The notes beneath the pieces were generated by a model that had not been told where the DNA came from, did no database searches, and saw only the letters and a list, made by a program, of their open reading frames with translations. Shown here piece by piece: positions 7,604 through 64,000 of a stretch of DNA of 64,000 nucleotides; the first letter of the stretch is position 1, and each line of letters opens with the position of its first letter. The translations under genes were made by a program, and so were the position numbers. The stretch comes from Flavobacteriales bacterium (GTDB taxonomy: Bacteria; Bacteroidota; Bacteroidia; Flavobacteriales_D; Crocinitomicaceae), in assembly GCA_947449575.1 (NCBI GenBank), contig CANFRV010000018.1:1-64000 (forward strand). The letters are read 5' to 3'.

Positions 7604-8566
7604 ATGAAAATATTTAATTTATTATTTGTCCTTTCTCTTATTACTTTTTCATGCGTTCCTGCAAAAAAATACAAAGATCTTGTGGAACGTGAAAAAATCT
7701 GTAGCACAGAACTCGAGAAATACAAGGCTAGTTCATTAGATTTTGAAGGAAAATACACCGATTTAGTAACTCGTCACGACGTCGCAAAAAAAGAAATTGA
7801 TGCGCTCATTATCGACACGACTGATTTAGGTGCGAAATTACGTTTACTGCATATTCAATATGAAAAAATTGTAGGCGAAAATGATCATCTGCAAGCAAAG
7901 TTTGATAAATTAAGGTTGTCTGGGGCCAAAGAAACGGCAGGACTTCAATATGATTTGGAGGCTAAGAATTTAGAACTACAAAGGAAAAGTGATGTTTTAA
8001 CAGCATTAGAAAATGAACTTGCGCTAAAATCTAGCCTTTTAACAGAAAGAGAGCAACGCGTGAATGAATTAGAAGAAATGATTCAGCGGAAAGATGATGC
8101 TGTAAAAGCTTTGAAAAGTAAAGTTGCTAATGCATTAAAAGGTTTTGAAAATAAAGGGTTAACTGTTGTTCAAAAAAACGGAAAAATATATGTCAGTCTG
8201 GAGGCGAAATTATTATTTAGCTCTGGAAGTACGGTCGTAGAAACAGAAGGTAAAAAAGCATTAATTGATTTAGCCAAAGTACTAGAAACAGAGAAAGAAG
8301 TAGAAATTGTTGTGGAAGGACATACCGACACTGATAAATTCAGTAGTTCAACAAGTCCAAGAAATAACTGGGAATTATCTGTCTTACGATCCACCGCTGT
8401 AGTGGAAATAATGACCGCAAATTCTAAAATGAACCCTGTGCAATTAATGGCAGCTGGTCGTTCTGAATACATTCCTGTTGATGTAAAAGATAAGGCGAAA
8501 AACAGAAGAATTGAAATCATCATTTCTCCTAATTTAAACGAATTGTTTGAGATTATTTCTAAGTAG
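7604..8566 (+). CDS. OmpA-family lipoprotein with coiled coil
   Basis: The 320-residue product starts with a lipoprotein signal peptide whose lipobox ends at FSC (Cys17). Residues about 20-175 form a heptad-rich coiled coil. The C-terminal domain (about 190-315) carries OmpA/MotB peptidoglycan-binding signatures: VEGHTDTD, NWELSVLRS, AAGRSEY and NRRIEI. It should be anchored in the outer membrane and bind peptidoglycan non-covalently. ATG at 7604 is the natural start because the signal peptide begins there. It is followed by repeats rather than by a gene partner. Confidence 0.9.
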   Translation: MKIFNLLFVLSLITFSCVPAKKYKDLVEREKICSTELEKYKASSLDFEGKYTDLVTRHDVAKKEIDALIIDTTDLGAKLRLLHIQYEKIVGENDHLQAKFDKLRLSGAKETAGLQYDLEAKNLELQRKSDVLTALENELALKSSLLTEREQRVNELEEMIQRKDDAVKALKSKVANALKGFENKGLTVVQKNGKIYVSLEAKLLFSSGSTVVETEGKKALIDLAKVLETEKEVEIVVEGHTDTDKFSSSTSPRNNWELSVLRSTAVVEIMTANSKMNPVQLMAAGRSEYIPVDVKDKAKNRRIEIIISPNLNELFEIISK

Positions 8567-12170: not shown

Positions 12171-12244
12171 TCCTTCTTAGCTCAGCTGGTTAGAGCATCT
12201 GACTGTTAATCAGAGGGTCCCTGGTTCGAGTCCAGGAGAGGGAG
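12171..12244 (+). tRNA. tRNA-Asn (anticodon GTT)
   Basis: The cloverleaf can be drawn by hand. Acceptor arm TCCTTCT pairs with AGAGGGA, with one G-U. The D-arm is in TTAGCTCAGCTGGTTAGAGC, the anticodon stem TCTGA/TCAGA encloses loop CTGTTAA, and the T-arm is CCTGG-TTCGAGT-CCAGG. The discriminator is G at 12244 and CCA is not encoded. It is the integration target: the sequence from the anticodon loop to just past the 3' end is repeated at 29554. Confidence 0.96.
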
Positions 12245-12250
12245 CAAAAA
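12203..12250 (+). repeat. Left copy of 48-bp attachment repeat (tRNA 3' part)
   Basis: These 48 bp, from the anticodon loop through GGGAGCAAAAA, are identical to 29554-29601. A perfect repeat of a tRNA 3' end flanking recombinase and defence genes is the usual signature of tyrosine-recombinase integration; here it delimits a block of about 17.35 kb. Confidence 0.9.
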
Positions 12251-12276: not shown

Positions 12277-12337
12277 GGTTTTATAAGGTACTGATTATCT
12301 TTAAGATGCTCTAAACATCTGAGCTAAGAGATAATTT
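12277..12337 (-). repeat. 61-bp element end with inverted tRNA-Asn-like half (copy 1)
   Basis: This segment matches 29647-29707 with two differences. Read on the minus strand, 12291-12328 aligns without gaps to tRNA-Asn positions 12176-12213 with 32 of 38 identities, covering the D-arm and the anticodon region. The anticodon position reads GAT and the anticodon stem is broken, so it is not a functional tRNA. Confidence 0.75.
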
Positions 12338-15658: not shown

Positions 15659-15710
15659 ACTTGCCAAAAATGTATCTATTATTTAAAAAGATAAGTATAA
15701 TTGGCAAGAC
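15659..15710 (+). repeat. Inner block of left inverted end (about 52 bp)
   Basis: The block runs from ACTTGCCAAAAA to TTGGCAAGAC. Its reverse complement matches 22226-22276 over its whole length, with one single-base indel and a few mismatches in the middle. Each copy is itself bounded by CTTGCCAA and TTGGCAAG, as expected of recombinase or transposase binding sites. Confidence 0.75.
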
Positions 15711-20526: not shown

Positions 20527-20868
20527 ATGTATTTTTTTATAACTAGAATTTATTTGAAATCAATCGGAGAATTGATTCATAGAACCGACAAAAGAACAAT
20601 TAGGAGATGGTGCAACAAATACCATCTCCAAATGTTCAAAGATTCATCTGGTGAATTTGTATATGAAAACGATTTTGATTTGGCATACGATAGTCCCTTA
20701 ATTTTGAAATTAAAAGCAAAGTATCGAAATGGTTGGATAGATTACTATGAAGCATATAACAAAGATGAGCTATTTAAGATGTTAGAAATGTCTACCGTTT
20801 CGACAAGTTCCAAGTCCAGTTATATACCAAGAGGGAAAATAACAAGCAAAATATTGAAAAAGAAGTAA
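20527..20868 (+). CDS. Excisionase-like helix-turn-helix protein
   Basis: The 113-residue protein contains IGELIHRTDKRTIRRWCNKY followed by FKDSSGEFVYENDF, which fits a winged helix-turn-helix: a recognition helix rich in Arg, then a beta wing. It lies directly upstream of the intact tyrosine recombinase gene (33 bp gap), where excisionases or recombination directionality factors are commonly encoded. Function is inferred from the fold pattern and position. The C-terminus is Ser/Thr/Lys-rich and probably disordered. Confidence 0.6.
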   Translation: MYFFITRIYLKSIGELIHRTDKRTIRRWCNKYHLQMFKDSSGEFVYENDFDLAYDSPLILKLKAKYRNGWIDYYEAYNKDELFKMLEMSTVSTSSKSSYIPRGKITSKILKKK

Positions 20869-20901
20869 AAATGAGTTACACTCGCATTAATAAAAAGCAA
20901 A

Positions 20902-22188
20902 ATGAAAAAACTTAAGTATAAAAAATTCCAAGGTTTGCACATCGTTTGCAAGAAGTGTGGGAAGCAAATTGAAGTATCAGATGTTGAATACAAAGACTGT
21001 AATCATCCTATTGAAAAACAGCGATATAAAGCTGTAATTACGATAAATGGAGGACGTAAAACCAAAGATTTAAAATCGTTGGAATATGATGAAGCTGTAA
21101 AAGAACTATTGGATTTTAAAGAAGAATTGGCGAACCCAATATCTATTGTAATTCCTAAACAAAAGAAGGTAGTAAAACACGATTTAATAACTGATTGTGT
21201 TTTGATGTTTGGGGATTGGTTAGAAAATGTGGATGTTCCAAAACACGAGCAAAAGGTTAGAACGGATAAGTACATCAAAGAATGTATTGGTTATGTACAA
21301 AGAATGGTTGATTTTATTGGAAGAAGTGGATACAATCTCAATAAATTTACCATTTATGAAATGAACAAATATATCATTGGTGAATATGTTGAGTATCTTT
21401 TGACTTTGACAAATAAAGCAACAACATACAACCATAATATCCGTGCTTTAAAGAATTTCTATAACTTTTTAATCAATGAAAAAGAATATGTGATTCCGAA
21501 TTTGGTTAAGAAAATCAAATTGAAATATGAGAACCCAGACCCTCGAAGTGTTGATGATGATGACTTAACTAAAATTCTTAATAAGATTGATGAGAGTTCA
21601 AATGAACCAAACATCAAAGTTTATAAAAATGGCGTGAAGAAAAATATGTTTAGACCATACATTAGAACTAGTATTGAGCTAGCTGCATATACTGGAATGA
21701 GATTAGAAGAAGTTGCAATATTCAAATATTCAGACCTAAAATTTCATCCAGACGGAAGAATGGCTTATCTCGAAGGTACTGATTTGAAGTTTGAAAGAAC
21801 ACATAATTTGGATTCTACAAGAGAAAAAAAGATAGTATACATTCCAATCACTCCAGAATTGGAAGATTTGTTTAACCGTTTAAACTATAAAGAACACATA
21901 AATAGTGATAAATACATTCTTGATGAAGATGAAAACCTTAGTAGGAATACGGTAACTAAACAAATGAGTCATTCTTTTACCTTCTTTAGAGATAAAGCTG
22001 GTGTTCCAAAAAATATCAGTATCAAACACCTTAGAAAAACGTTTCTTACAAAGCTTGAAACTCAAACGGGATTAACTACTGCTGCTGGTTATCAAAAAAC
22101 AGCTAACGTGATTCATAAGAACTACATTGATAAACGAAAGATAGTACAAGAGATTGCTAATCGAGGATTTGGATATTTTAAAGAATGA
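20902..22188 (+). CDS. Tyrosine recombinase with N-terminal zinc motif
   Basis: The 428-residue protein begins with a zinc-ribbon-like segment (CKKCG at residues 13-17, later C...H) leading into an arm-type DNA-binding region, then a SAM-like core-binding domain (about 100-200) and a catalytic domain. Box I TGMRLEEVAIFKYSDL keeps the Arg, box II KHLRKTF keeps HxxR, and IHKNYIDKR supplies the Tyr, so it appears active. It lies 38 bp before the right inverted end (22226), so it probably acts on these ends. A TACACTCGCAT box lies 14 bp before its ATG. Confidence 0.85.
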   Translation: MKKLKYKKFQGLHIVCKKCGKQIEVSDVEYKDCNHPIEKQRYKAVITINGGRKTKDLKSLEYDEAVKELLDFKEELANPISIVIPKQKKVVKHDLITDCVLMFGDWLENVDVPKHEQKVRTDKYIKECIGYVQRMVDFIGRSGYNLNKFTIYEMNKYIIGEYVEYLLTLTNKATTYNHNIRALKNFYNFLINEKEYVIPNLVKKIKLKYENPDPRSVDDDDLTKILNKIDESSNEPNIKVYKNGVKKNMFRPYIRTSIELAAYTGMRLEEVAIFKYSDLKFHPDGRMAYLEGTDLKFERTHNLDSTREKKIVYIPITPELEDLFNRLNYKEHINSDKYILDEDENLSRNTVTKQMSHSFTFFRDKAGVPKNISIKHLRKTFLTKLETQTGLTTAAGYQKTANVIHKNYIDKRKIVQEIANRGFGYFKE

Positions 22189-22225
22189 AATATGATTAAA
22201 AAGAGTGGCTTTAGAGTAATGTTGA

Positions 22226-22276
22226 GTCTTGCCAATTATCCTTATCTTTTTAATAATAACATCAATATTGGCAAGT
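22226..22276 (-). repeat. Inner block of right inverted end (about 51 bp)
   Basis: The block runs from GTCTTGCCAATTAT to ATTGGCAAGT and is the inverted counterpart of 15659-15710. The first 25 bases agree with the left copy (reverse-complemented) at all but one position. Confidence 0.75.
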
Positions 22277-22338
22277 ACAATATGTATATTCAGACAGTTG
22301 ATATACATGCATTTAAGTGATTTTATTAACTGATTTTA

Positions 22339-22357
22339 TGAGCGATATTTTCGCTCA
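22339..22357. repeat. Outer block of right inverted end; also terminator-like
   Basis: TGAGCGA-TATTT-TCGCTCA is a near-perfect hairpin followed by ATTTTTT, so on the plus strand it could also terminate transcription. It mirrors 15579-15597 at an almost equal distance (63 bp) from the inner block. Confidence 0.6.
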
Positions 22358-22441
22358 ATTTTTTAATCACTAATTCAATTAGATTCATAAAGAATCGTAT
22401 CCAATAAGCTTTACTTTCAATAAAAGTGATAGTATAATTGA

Positions 22442-22522
22442 CTATGCTACAAGGATAACTATGTCCTTAAGCATAGGGTTCCTCCTAGCTTGCAACTAGG
22501 GGGTTGGTTGCCCTTCTCAACC
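22442..22522 (+). ncRNA. Structured leader RNA with three hairpins
   Basis: Stem P1 pairs CTATGCT (442-448 in the last three digits) with AGCATAG (470-476) and encloses AAGGA/TCCTT. P2 pairs CCTCCTAG (481-488) with CTAGGGGG (496-503), with one G-U and a 7-nt loop. P3 pairs GGTTG (506-510) with CAACC (518-522). CATAG can pair with either of two CTATG copies (442-446 or 459-463), and CAACC with either of two GGTTG copies, so alternative folds exist. It is far more GC-rich than its surroundings and ends 37 bp before the ATG at 22560. It could be a cis-regulatory leader, a small RNA or a replication-origin structure. Confidence 0.6.
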
Positions 22523-22559
22523 AAAAAAATTGTAATAATAACCTATAAAAAACAAGAAA

Positions 22560-25262
22560 ATGAGAACTATTTTAATTAATGACTTCGTAAGCAATGATGA
22601 AATTGCAAACACAATAATAACAAACTTCGATAACAATAAACTTGTTGTAAAAGGTGATACTGGGATTGGTGGAACAACCTCTATCCTAAACATAACAGAT
22701 AAAAATGTGATTATAATATCACCTTTGGCTGGAATGATAGTTGGTAAAGAACAAAAAAGTGACCGAAAATCAAACCAAATGTTCATTTATCAGAACTCCA
22801 AAGACAAATGGCATCATTACGAACAAGAAGTAAGAAGTGGTGGCTTTATTATCTTAAACACAACTCCAGAACAAATAATTGAACTTAAAAAGAATAATTC
22901 TTCTTTATTTCAAAGGATAATGGATATTCCATTTTTTGTGGATGAATTCCAAGTATACGGTGAAAGTGACTATAGAAAAAGTATGAATGAATTCTATAAC
23001 ATTCTCTTTAATGAGCATGGAGGAAATTTCACACTTTCAACAGCAACTCCTACCTATAAAAACCTTGATATTCCAAATCATATATTGACAAGTATGGACC
23101 TTATTACAATCAAACGAATGGAAAAAAGAGAGAAACAATTAACTATTGAACCACTGAATAATTATTACAATTTCATCAAGAGTAATTGTGATAGAGGTAA
23201 TAAAGTGGTCCTATTCACCAACGATATCAATAAGATTAAAAACTTGATAAACAACGAAGAATTTGGATATAAGATTCAGCTATTGATTGGGGAAACACTT
23301 GCAATTAAAACAAGTGCAATCAAAACCAAATCTCTCAAAGAGTATAACCTACTAGAGAAATCTATGGTTGATTTAGATGCAAATGTTTTTATTCTATCAA
23401 CCAAATATCTTATTGGATTCGATTTGGAATTCGATGCGTCAGTTGGAATTATAATGAATGAAAATTCTGAAGTTGACAATTTCAATGCAAATCAACTAGT
23501 TCAAGCTTATGGTAGAATTAGAAAAAATGTAATTGAAGCTAGTATCTTCTATAACTCAAACGAAATAGAAAACGAAAGCATCACCGAGATTGAAAAAATG
23601 ATTAACGAAGTTGAATACAACTCTGTTTATCTTACTAACATCCAATCTCATCTTGGAAGCCTAAATAATTCTTTGAGTTATCCTCAATATAATTTAATCA
23701 AATCGTTGACTGAATATGGTTTTAAAGTTAAAGTAGATGAAACTTCAAATGAAGTCAGAAGTACTAGGTCAACGTTTGGTGATAAATATCAAAATTTAAT
23801 AAATCAAGAAAACAAAGACCAGTACTACTTACAGAAAGAGTTGATAAAAGTTTATAGCAAAATCAAAGGTGATGATTCTAGTTACAATGGCTACAACCAA
23901 AAACAACTACTATTGTGGGCAGCTGCATATATAGGTGTTGTTACTGATTCAGATTATTTGACCAACTATATTCCCGAAAGATACGAGAGACTTTTATTAA
24001 GAGTTAAAGCATTCATTGATGTAAATGATTTAGCACATCCAAATAAAATGACAGAAATGGATAAGATAACAAAATTTAGAGTTTCTGAAAATATTCAAAA
24101 GATTGCAATCAAAGATGGTGCATTGTGTAATCAAATCAAAGCTCAAAAAATCATAAAAAACTCCGACAATAAAATCGAATTTATTGATGTTTATGAAGAT
24201 ACAATGTATACTAAAATGAGCAATCTATATTTTGATGATACTTTCAATAAAGCCAAACAAATCATAAACAGTTTGTATGCAATAAATCTTGTTGAAAATG
24301 GTCAGTATTCAACCAATACAGAAAGAATAGTTCATGGCTTCAGTTCTGTAAGTGAATGTTTAATTGATGATTATATCAAAGCTCTTTCTGATATATCTGG
24401 AATTGAAGTAGAGGCTTTGTTAATAAGTGATGATAAAGAAAAACTACATAAATTATCCAAGGAGTTTGCTTATCAATTAAAATCAAGTGAAGTTTTCAGA
24501 AATACGAATAGAAAAATAGTGAAAAAATTAAGAAAACTAGATGGATTTGAGCACTATAATCAAGAAGAGATAAATCAAATTATGGATAAAGCGGCAAACA
24601 TAAAATCATCTTTGATAGAATGTAAACACGGAATTCGCAATACAATCAAAATGAATACCTATAGTATTAGAAAACAAGTTGAAAGACATAAATACTATAT
24701 TCTTTCTATCCTTTCAATTTCTTGTGCTAGTCATATTTTTGGATTCAAAACCACAAGAAGTGATAATCGAGTATTTAATCCAGCAACCAAAACTACAAGA
24801 CAATTGCGAGGATATACACCTTATCAAATGATTCAATGTGACATTAAAAGTGCATTTGCTACATTTTTGGATGTTATGGTTGGAAGCAACATTGCCCAAG
24901 ATGTATATGGAAACATAATGAAAAATAAAAAAGTAGATAGAAGTCAAGCAAAAACACTTTACAACTCGATGCTAAATGATTACAGAAGAAACACAATTGA
25001 GGCGAGAGCTTTTTTTAGGATTTGTGGCTATTCAAATGAACAAATCCAAAAAATTATCCAAATCACGTCAAAAGAAAAAGGTGGATTTTACAGAGAAATG
25101 ACCAAGAAAGAAGAACAAGTAATAAAAGATTTCAAGGAATGGAATAGATTAGATGAAAATGCTATACGCTTACATGATGCTATTTTCCTTCCTAATCTTC
25201 CAATGTATCAAAATCTTCATTCAAAGATTGGAAATTGTGAGTTTGAAATTAAACCTATTTAA
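22560..25262 (+). CDS. Helicase-like ATPase fused to polymerase-like C-terminus
   Basis: This 900-residue protein is not a family I can name. The N-terminal half resembles an SF2-type helicase: KGDTGIGGTTS (residues 31-41, a Walker A in which the usual Lys is Gly), VDEFQ (Asp128-Glu129), STATP (160-164, motif III-like) and QAYGRIRK (315-322, motif VI-like). The C-terminal 145 residues contain QCDIKSAFATFLD (Asp761), DRSQAKTLYNSMLND (Arg794, Lys798) and RLHDAIFLP (His872-Asp873). These occur in the order and with the residues of family A polymerase motifs A, B and C, although with shorter spacing. The middle is helical and unassigned. A replication or repair role on a mobile element is inference. 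It follows a structured leader and stands alone on its transcript. Confidence 0.65.
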   Translation: MRTILINDFVSNDEIANTIITNFDNNKLVVKGDTGIGGTTSILNITDKNVIIISPLAGMIVGKEQKSDRKSNQMFIYQNSKDKWHHYEQEVRSGGFIILNTTPEQIIELKKNNSSLFQRIMDIPFFVDEFQVYGESDYRKSMNEFYNILFNEHGGNFTLSTATPTYKNLDIPNHILTSMDLITIKRMEKREKQLTIEPLNNYYNFIKSNCDRGNKVVLFTNDINKIKNLINNEEFGYKIQLLIGETLAIKTSAIKTKSLKEYNLLEKSMVDLDANVFILSTKYLIGFDLEFDASVGIIMNENSEVDNFNANQLVQAYGRIRKNVIEASIFYNSNEIENESITEIEKMINEVEYNSVYLTNIQSHLGSLNNSLSYPQYNLIKSLTEYGFKVKVDETSNEVRSTRSTFGDKYQNLINQENKDQYYLQKELIKVYSKIKGDDSSYNGYNQKQLLLWAAAYIGVVTDSDYLTNYIPERYERLLLRVKAFIDVNDLAHPNKMTEMDKITKFRVSENIQKIAIKDGALCNQIKAQKIIKNSDNKIEFIDVYEDTMYTKMSNLYFDDTFNKAKQIINSLYAINLVENGQYSTNTERIVHGFSSVSECLIDDYIKALSDISGIEVEALLISDDKEKLHKLSKEFAYQLKSSEVFRNTNRKIVKKLRKLDGFEHYNQEEINQIMDKAANIKSSLIECKHGIRNTIKMNTYSIRKQVERHKYYILSILSISCASHIFGFKTTRSDNRVFNPATKTTRQLRGYTPYQMIQCDIKSAFATFLDVMVGSNIAQDVYGNIMKNKKVDRSQAKTLYNSMLNDYRRNTIEARAFFRICGYSNEQIQKIIQITSKEKGGFYREMTKKEEQVIKDFKEWNRLDENAIRLHDAIFLPNLPMYQNLHSKIGNCEFEIKPI

Positions 25263-25624
25263 TTTAAGGGGGGCTTCGATGAGGTTTTATATTGATAATC
25301 AATACGTTACCTCCCTCGTGTGTTCAATATTTCTAAGTTGTAAAATACAGCACTTGAATAGGCTTTTAAAATTTTCCATAAAAATGGGCTTACAATTTTG
25401 TAGGTCCATTTCCCAAAAAATATTTTTTTGGATTTTCGTCTATTTTATTTGTTCCATTTGCACCTTATTTAGCAAACTTTTATTCTTTTGATTTGAAGCA
25501 TAATCATAGCTTTATAATCATTAACATAATGCTATGTGTGAGTATTAGCCTCGATTTAACGAATTATTTTGAAAAAGTTAGGCGTTTGGTTATTTGATGA
25601 GATATTTATCATTAAAACGAGAGT
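25263..25624. other. Intergenic stretch without a supportable gene
   Basis: The frame open from 25153 to 25491 overlaps the end of the fusion gene and is Phe/Leu/Ile-rich like random AT-rich DNA, so I do not call it. The sequence begins with a G6 run (about 25267) and contains GAGGT/ACCTC inverted pairs within 60 bp, possibly a weak hairpin. Confidence 0.4.
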
Positions 25625-25786
25625 ATGACGCCACAAGAGTATGACCAACAGATTCACATAATATCTCAACAAATATCAATTGCAAGAACTTCAGAGGAAC
25701 GAGAACGATTAGAGATGAAGTTGAGGAAGAAAAGGCTGGAAAAACAAATTGCTGAAATCCGATTAAAGATTCAGCAATTGTCTTGA
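25625..25786 (+). CDS. Small coiled-coil protein, 53 aa
   Basis: An ATG at 25625 opens 53 codons to TGA at 25786. The sequence is Glu/Arg/Lys/Gln-rich with clear heptads (EERERLEMKLRKKRLEKQI), so it is a short charged coiled coil. Its last codons lie in an inverted repeat: AATTGCTGAA at 25748-25757 and TTCAGCAATT about 12 bases later, which may serve as a terminator-like hairpin. Function unknown; moderate confidence because of size. Confidence 0.45.
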   Translation: MTPQEYDQQIHIISQQISIARTSEERERLEMKLRKKRLEKQIAEIRLKIQQLS

Positions 25787-26122
25787 AAATCAAGTTAATA
25801 AAATAACTTTAGTAAAATTAATAAAATTAAGTTGTAAACACTCAAAATATGATATCTTTTTATGTTAAGAAACGAGATTTTGATTTGATATGTATCTTTG
25901 CATTTTAATTCATAGGATGATGCATCGAATAAAAGAAGTATTAGACTTTTGGAAATAAAAATGGTTAGCCTTTCAAGTGGGTAAGAGTTAAAATATAGTT
26001 AATTTATATGCTCAAAAAGGAGACAACCAAGTAAAGAAGACTTATTTAAAATTAGTTAAATTTTTGAATATTAATTAAAGGAATTATTATCAAGTTCAAT
26101 AAAGTCAAATTCGATAAAAAAT
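25787..26122. promoter_or_regulatory. Upstream region of the restriction-modification operon
   Basis: This 336-bp stretch has no gene. TATCTTTG at 25893-25900 matches the -7 consensus, but no well-spaced TTTG precedes it. A start site near 25907 would give a leader of more than 200 nt before the first methyltransferase. No controller-protein gene is visible. Confidence 0.35.
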
Positions 26123-29553: not shown

Positions 29554-29601
29554 CTGTTAATCAGAGGGTCCCTGGTTCGAGTCCAGGAGAGGGAGCAAAA
29601 A
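29554..29601 (+). repeat. Right copy of 48-bp attachment repeat
   Basis: Identical to 12203-12250, carrying the tRNA-Asn anticodon loop, T-arm and 3' acceptor strand but no 5' half, so it is not a functional tRNA. It marks the junction of block A with block B. ACTGAC-T-GTCAGT, a short perfect palindrome, lies about 30 bp to its left (about 29518-29530). Confidence 0.9.
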
Positions 29602-29652: not shown

Positions 29653-29707
29653 ATAAGGTGCTGATTATCTTTAAGATGCTATAAACATCTGAGCTAAGAG
29701 ATAATTT
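29647..29707 (-). repeat. 61-bp element end with inverted tRNA-Asn-like half (copy 2)
   Basis: Near-identical to 12277-12337, with two substitutions. On the minus strand 29661-29698 aligns to the tRNA-Asn 5' half (31 of 38 identities). Its presence right after both tRNA fragments suggests that blocks A and B share an element end. Confidence 0.75.
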
Positions 29708-63665: not shown

Positions 63666-64000
63666 GATAGAATTTAGGAAGATTGGGGAAATTCTTACTT
63701 CCCAATACAATATCCTATACCACCTCTGAACCCCTTGATTTCATTGGGTTGTAGAAGTGCTATTTTGTGCGTGTGCCACTAATGTGTCGTGTAATGAAAG
63801 TAGATATTAAAGGGGTATTTAGGAAGATTTTAGCGTGTTGATAAGTTTAAGATGAATAACGTTCTACGTGTAGGCGATGGTTCCTTGCGCTGCGCCTGCA
63901 GCAAGGCAATTTTGCCTACACGCTGTTAGGGTATCGTTGTTTAGAATGATCTAATCGCTCTTACATAAGCTATCCTATCTTTAGGCTTATCTCTCTCGGT
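63666..64000. repeat. Palindromic, attC-like structure in intergenic DNA
   Basis: Nested inverted repeats occupy 63857-63931: outer TAAC (63857-63860) and GTTA (63925-63928), then CGTGTAGGC (63867-63875) with GCCTACACG (63914-63922), and inner CCTTGC/GCAAGG. The spacer between outer and inner arms is longer on the left. This resembles a folded integron attC site, but the boxes do not fully fit RYYYAAC/GTTRRRY. The rest of the interval shows no gene. Confidence 0.45.

Follow-up and report, generated by a model that had tools for sequence, protein, structure and literature searches.

The question that this locus raises is what three hairpins (22442–22524, plus strand) are doing directly ahead of a helicase-like gene that is carried by a mobile element of a bacterium, and whether they act in the mRNA of that gene, as an RNA of their own or as DNA. 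Positions refer to the window, which is the whole 64,000-nt stretch of Flavobacteriales DNA that was analyzed. The answer that we prefer, tentatively, is that the element is an ordinary structured 5′ leader of a replication-type gene, whose hairpins would tune or protect the mRNA.

Fold and position of the three hairpins

Hairpin 1 (22442–22476, plus strand) folds as a two-part stem of 7 + 7 pairs, and its 14 pairs are kept, with one G-U change, in the three sequences compared below. Hairpin 2 (22481–22503, plus strand) has 8 pairs, all invariant in the three sequences, and a 7-nt loop, CTTGCAA, that contains the self-complementary TTGCAA, while hairpin 3 (22504–22524, plus strand) has 7 pairs and a 7-nt loop, with two one-sided changes that keep their pairs as G-U. 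The initial annotation had placed three hairpins in 81 nt ending 37 nt before the start codon, and this is borne out by the fold and the shuffles and by the distance from 22522 to the ATG at 22560; the end then given falls two pairs short of the full third helix.

For the 101 nt of 22430–22530, the minimum free energy (MFE) is −33.6 kcal/mol (z −3.70), and none of 200 dinucleotide shuffles is as good, so the region is more stable than its shuffles, as would be expected of a structured leader. The 81 nt of 22442–22522 give an MFE of −30.0 (z −3.22), equaled by 1 of 200 shuffles. The minus strand of 22430–22530 folds nearly equally well (z −3.19, 2 of 200 shuffles), as inverted repeats should. 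When 100-nt segments of the whole 64 kb were ranked by stability (both strands, step of 25), the one at 22426 on the plus strand came 5th of 5112, and 8th of 5112 after a linear G+C correction; the second most stable segment of the stretch lies far away, at 63826–63950 (−38.8 kcal/mol at 63851). The element has one copy in its own genome. Rfam has no family for the three hairpins at gathering score. With thresholds relaxed there are six sub-threshold matches, none of them within the hairpins; one is PreQ1 at 22535–22561, with 15.4 bits versus the 39 needed.

Just upstream lies a candidate promoter on the plus strand (22410–22440; TTTACT-17-TATAAT at 22410–22438) that overlaps TATAATTG (22433–22440) and implies a start at ~22445. 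TATAATTG has one mismatch to the Flavobacterium TAnnTTTG box, a −7 box of the kind described in PMC9723704 and PMC6847099. On either strand, promoter-like sites are found here at chance frequency (2 versus 3.6 expected; 6 versus 5.8 expected per 300 nt), so the argument for a promoter is positional only. The implied start is within three bases of the foot of hairpin 1; an RNA begun at 22445 would lack the three outermost pairs of that hairpin and have a leader of ~115 nt. By position, the leader fits, on the sense strand, between the candidate promoter, with its signal at chance level, and the start codon. Between hairpin 3 and the start codon lies an A/T-rich stretch (22525–22559, plus strand) that is mostly unpaired (mean pairing 0.25). 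The candidate −7 box is also the likeness to known Flavobacterium 5′ untranslated regions; according to PMC9723704, those of F. psychrophilum have a median of 24 and a mean of 65 nt, whereas the leader here, if the start is right, is ~115 nt long and strongly structured.

The gene, its island and copies of the probable leader

The gene (22560–25262, plus strand) encodes a 900-aa protein with N-terminal similarity to DEAD-like helicases and a C-terminal region common to larger proteins that look replication-type. In Pfam, its only match is a weak one to the DEAD helicase family (E 1.7e-4, 21.8 bits versus a cut-off of 26), and it matches no initiator family there. The C-terminal 150–180 residues are common to 775–788-aa proteins in four genomes (G004, G012, G216, G257), and the P-loop of these proteins is one that we take to resemble that of superfamily-3 helicases; Pfam gave no superfamily-3 confirmation in the two of the four that were tested. 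To call the gene replication-type is therefore an inference. The C-terminal part of the 900-aa protein carries what we assume to be palm-polymerase-like motifs, for which the profile libraries tried gave no confirmation in the window protein or its relatives, and its presumed P-loop is GDTGIGGTTS, with lysine absent from the usual place. Structure prediction was poor (mean pLDDT 46.4 for the protein and 49.9 for its C-terminal part).

Near-full-length homologues are few: G007 (89%), G109 (98%), G112 (partial), G153 (33–35%, on a contig that breaks off short of the gene start) and L043 (62%). Nine of 240 family genomes match, namely the own genome, G007, G109, G112, G153 and the four with the C-terminal part only, and 9 of 399 order genomes match, including one new short match in G367. 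Two peptide patterns scanned over a species-genome collection gave 5 loci, and no homologue of the protein was found in viral contigs, phages or plasmids. L043, on which a relative of the Flavobacteriales island lies, comes from a metagenome-assembled genome with the title Rhizobium sp., and we suppose that this contig is probably mis-binned.

The gene lies in a 17-kb island bounded by a 48-bp direct repeat of the 3′ part of tRNA-Asn (12203–12250 and 29554–29601), with methylase, recombinase and helicase-type genes among its contents. Beside each end repeat there is an inverted, ~80% similar partial copy of the tRNA-Asn region (12291–12337 and 29661–29707), and the segments at these copies are among the most stable of the region. 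A module of the island (20527–25789), comprising a 113-aa gene, the integrase gene, the intergenic region and the helicase-type gene, is common to G007 and G109; in L043 the helicase-type gene comes first, followed by a small gene, the integrase and tRNA-Met. A search with the integrase for further elements in viral contigs found none, and among published titles and the openings of abstracts we found none describing the leader or the island, a search that is no proof of absence from print.

The leader itself is nearly identical in three genomes, its own (G000), G007 and G109 (95–98% identity over 22442–22524). With a covariance model of the leader, 240 family genomes yielded only these three known copies, each ahead of a gene of the 22560–25262 type and each scoring ~118–120 bits. 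A DNA search of 299 order genomes gave matches in 20 at E ≤ 0.01, the element being full-length only in G000 and G109; 12 of the 18 other loci were inspected, as a 260-base piece each, and judged to be short chance matches. The DNA of the intergenic region had no match in plasmids and phages, and the exact hairpin-2 pattern was absent from viral contigs.

The compensatory changes in homologues that the initial annotation had proposed looking for did not turn up: none of 29 pairs has a two-sided change in the three aligned sequences. Across the 83 sites, G007 and G109 have five distinct changes, two unpaired and three at paired sites, and at all three of the latter the sense RNA, and it alone, can still pair, as G-U. 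A random single change at a paired site keeps its pair with a chance of 0.18–0.36, so the chance of three out of three is 0.006–0.045, depending on transition bias. In antisense RNA the same three changes are A-C mismatches, and in DNA hairpins they are non-Watson-Crick (G-T). These G-U-keeping changes would point to a sense RNA rather than to an antisense one or to hairpins in DNA, although three events are few and the evidence is weak.

The only divergent homologue with an available upstream region, L043, has a leader that is unstructured (7895–7995, z −0.29, with 67 of 200 shuffles as good; 7870–8000, z −0.66). The leader covariance model found no match on L043 with default filters. With the filters off, the corresponding place (7884–7971, plus strand) scores 3.8 bits, and the best match in the 731-nt stretch is on the minus strand (7785–7869) with 13.1 bits and an E of 0.0019 for the stretch, which we take as chance because the known copies score so much higher and both strand and place differ.

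The absence of the hairpins from L043 fits an explanation that we regard as unlikely, which is that the structure has no function of its own and is a short stretch rich in G+C that became fixed in a single recent lineage of the island. The three copies are so alike that their conservation says little, and the changes show no bias toward loops, with three of five in stems that make up 58 of the 83 sites. Against such a patch stand a stability far beyond that of the shuffles and the preservation of pairing at every changed paired site. We had also considered unusual conservation of the region, and dropped it: divergence in the leader is not distinctly below that of neighboring sequence and is patchy along the whole module.

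A possible DNA-level role and the inverted repeat next door

A role in DNA is likewise doubtful; on this reading the hairpins would serve the island in its excised state, either as part of a replication origin or as a site to which the helicase-type protein encoded downstream binds. It has in its favor that the gene looks replication-type, that both strands fold well and that the hairpins adjoin a conserved inverted-repeat module.

This module contains a 48-bp inverted repeat, CTTGCCA-N34-TGGCAAG (22228–22275, plus strand), that is conserved ahead of the gene even where the encoded proteins are only 62% identical, with a repeat length of 48–49 bp. It ends ~165 nt upstream of hairpin 1, and the spacer is conserved. 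About 60 nt after the repeat there is a short hairpin, whose stem is GAGCGA/TCGCTC in the window and of a GATGC/GCATC type in L043, with folding z-scores of −4.57 and −3.98, respectively. A T-run, which makes the hairpin look like a terminator, is present at the gene-proximal window copy and, by reading, absent in L043; in the window this terminator-like part of the module (22339–22357, plus strand; 1 found, 0.1 expected) follows the integrase gene. Among seven module copies, 4 of 18 predicted pairs have two-sided changes, but some copies have lost other pairs, and the covariation term (+0.16) is not favorable.

In each of the four genomes with an available upstream region, L043 among them (112 bits), the inverted-repeat module precedes the gene; G000, G007 and G109 have two copies apiece, the second lying elsewhere. 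In the window the second copy is at 15660–15708 on the minus strand, in opposite orientation, and lacks the three hairpins by reading and by model; the leader model found no match at the second copies of any of the three genomes. A model of the module matched 4 of 240 family genomes, the fourth being G001 with a degenerate copy (E 3e-4). Degenerate copies were seen at L185 682–815 in G007, after the end of a methylase gene, and at L190 near 1500–1600 in G001. A loose inverted-repeat pattern matched 11 of the 240 family genomes, of which G000, G007 and G109 have the module, at two places each; the other 8 match at a single place each that is unlike the module by eye, and a reversed control pattern also matched 8 genomes. 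The strict pattern matched 1 of 239 order genomes, which was the own genome. In viral contigs, the loose pattern gave at least 120 stretches, and none of 80 loci among the matches listed fit the module model at E ≤ 1; a stricter pattern gave none.

L043 keeps the inverted repeat and lacks the hairpins, which argues against an origin or binding site within the hairpins, as do the G-T mismatches that the three paired-site changes make in DNA. GC skew falls from 0.21 (20.5–21.5 kb) to 0.03 (22.5–23.5 kb) and has no sign change at the element, and the nearby inverted repeat occurs twice per genome in three genomes. The inverted repeat at 22228–22275 is a better candidate for an origin, a recombination site or a protein site than the three hairpins.

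Competing pairings and the structured-leader reading

The initial annotation had read the element as bistable on the grounds that CATAG (22472) can pair with two copies of CTATG (22442 and 22459) and CAACC (22518) with two copies of GGTTG (22502 and 22506). The words are present as claimed, and two competing 5-mers are reached by 4.9% of 2000 shuffles. The switching leader itself found no support: in the full-length RNA, a fold made to pair CATAG with the second CTATG is 8.5 kcal/mol less stable than the MFE fold, and one made to pair CAACC with the first GGTTG is 6.4 kcal/mol less stable, so that the MFE fold predominates.

We also varied the RNA ends, with starts from 22440 to 22447 and six ends from 22480 to 22700. 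When the RNA starts no later than 22443, at least 93% has hairpin 1 in its main form with every end tried. For starts at 22444–22447 and an end at 22501, the alternative fold ties (gap 0) and takes 28–88% of the ensemble; for starts at 22446–22447, the energy gap is 0.6–5.1 kcal/mol over the ends tried from 22526 to 22700, and the alternative has a share of 23% in RNA 22447–22526 and 22% in 22447–22700. In RNAs ending at 22559, the alternative has at most 4.3%, and the main fold dominates for starts up to 22447. In these predictions, the folds compete only if the RNA starts at ~22444 or later, and chiefly in RNAs that end near 22501.

No terminator-like site follows the hairpins in a scan of 22442–22559, and both folds give the surroundings of the start codon a mean pairing of 0.32, so that neither blocks it; for these two reasons, we see no output for a switch. 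The likeness to a riboswitch is in the competing short complementary words, whereas the alternatives here are 6–9 kcal/mol worse for the 81-nt element and there is neither an expression platform nor an Rfam match. Apart from the late starts described above, comparable exclusive folds were lacking, and so were an expression platform, a known aptamer family and compensatory changes.

Control of the leader by an antisense RNA, as in plasmids that limit rep through a counter-transcribed RNA, is quite improbable. The resemblance to the antisense-controlled rep leaders of pT181, pSK41 and pIP501 (PMC5703833) is that of a structured untranslated leader before a replication gene on a mobile replicon, and the element here has two 7-nt loops. 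On the minus strand of 22360–22660 there are three one-mismatch boxes (22619, 22529 and 22457), and those at 22529 and 22619 would read across the leader; however, the total over both strands equals chance. Unlike those leaders, the one here has antisense promoter signals at chance level, no terminator or stem blocking the ribosome site or start that we could find, one dominant fold and a downstream protein outside the Pfam initiator families, and it is only in the sense strand that its changes preserve pairing. An independent small RNA, with an end made near 22525 by processing or termination, would suit a compact element of three stable stems with a possible promoter at its 5′ edge, but it is very doubtful, given that no terminator-like site follows hairpin 3 and Rfam offers no family at gathering score and no relaxed match inside the hairpins. 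It is very improbable that the leader is a start-site-dependent switch, in which starts at or before 22442 would lock hairpin 1, starts a few bases later would tip it, at least during synthesis (end near 22501), to the second-CTATG fold, and expression of the replication-type protein would be set by where the RNA starts or by translation of the AAGGA-ATG mini-ORF MSLSIGFLLACN, although the implied start (~22445) does fall in the fold-sensitive range. The mini-ORF MSLSIGFLLACN (22461–22499) has AAGGA five bases upstream and overlaps hairpins 1 and 2, and of the three copies only that of G109 has a change in it, a synonymous one at 22472.

A structured leader remains the most economical reading, one to which we give somewhat less than even confidence. 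It is supported by the stable fold, by one dominant fold for most RNA ends tried, by an implied start near the hairpin foot, by the G-U changes and by the sole association, in the genomes searched, of the element with this gene. Counting against it are promoter sites at chance, three near-identical copies, no two-sided change, an unstructured L043 and a divergence that is not lower than nearby. Of the earlier suggestion that a switching structure could regulate the downstream gene, the structured leader survives on its stable fold and the switch is not supported, one fold being dominant. Transcription would start at ~22441–22446 from a candidate promoter just upstream, and the RNA is predicted to fold into one dominant row of three hairpins, with ~35 nt of A-rich sequence left unfolded where ribosomes could enter. 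The hairpins would act by position, protecting the 5′ end from decay and/or giving a protein or RNA encoded by the element a place to dock and so limit expression.

The importance of the element is modest because its structure is known from three near-identical copies. For excision or replication of the island, the inverted-repeat module, which is kept with the gene, is probably the more informative target. If the three hairpins are indeed a leader, they would offer a handle on how rare tRNA-integrated islands of Flavobacteriales control a replication-type gene.
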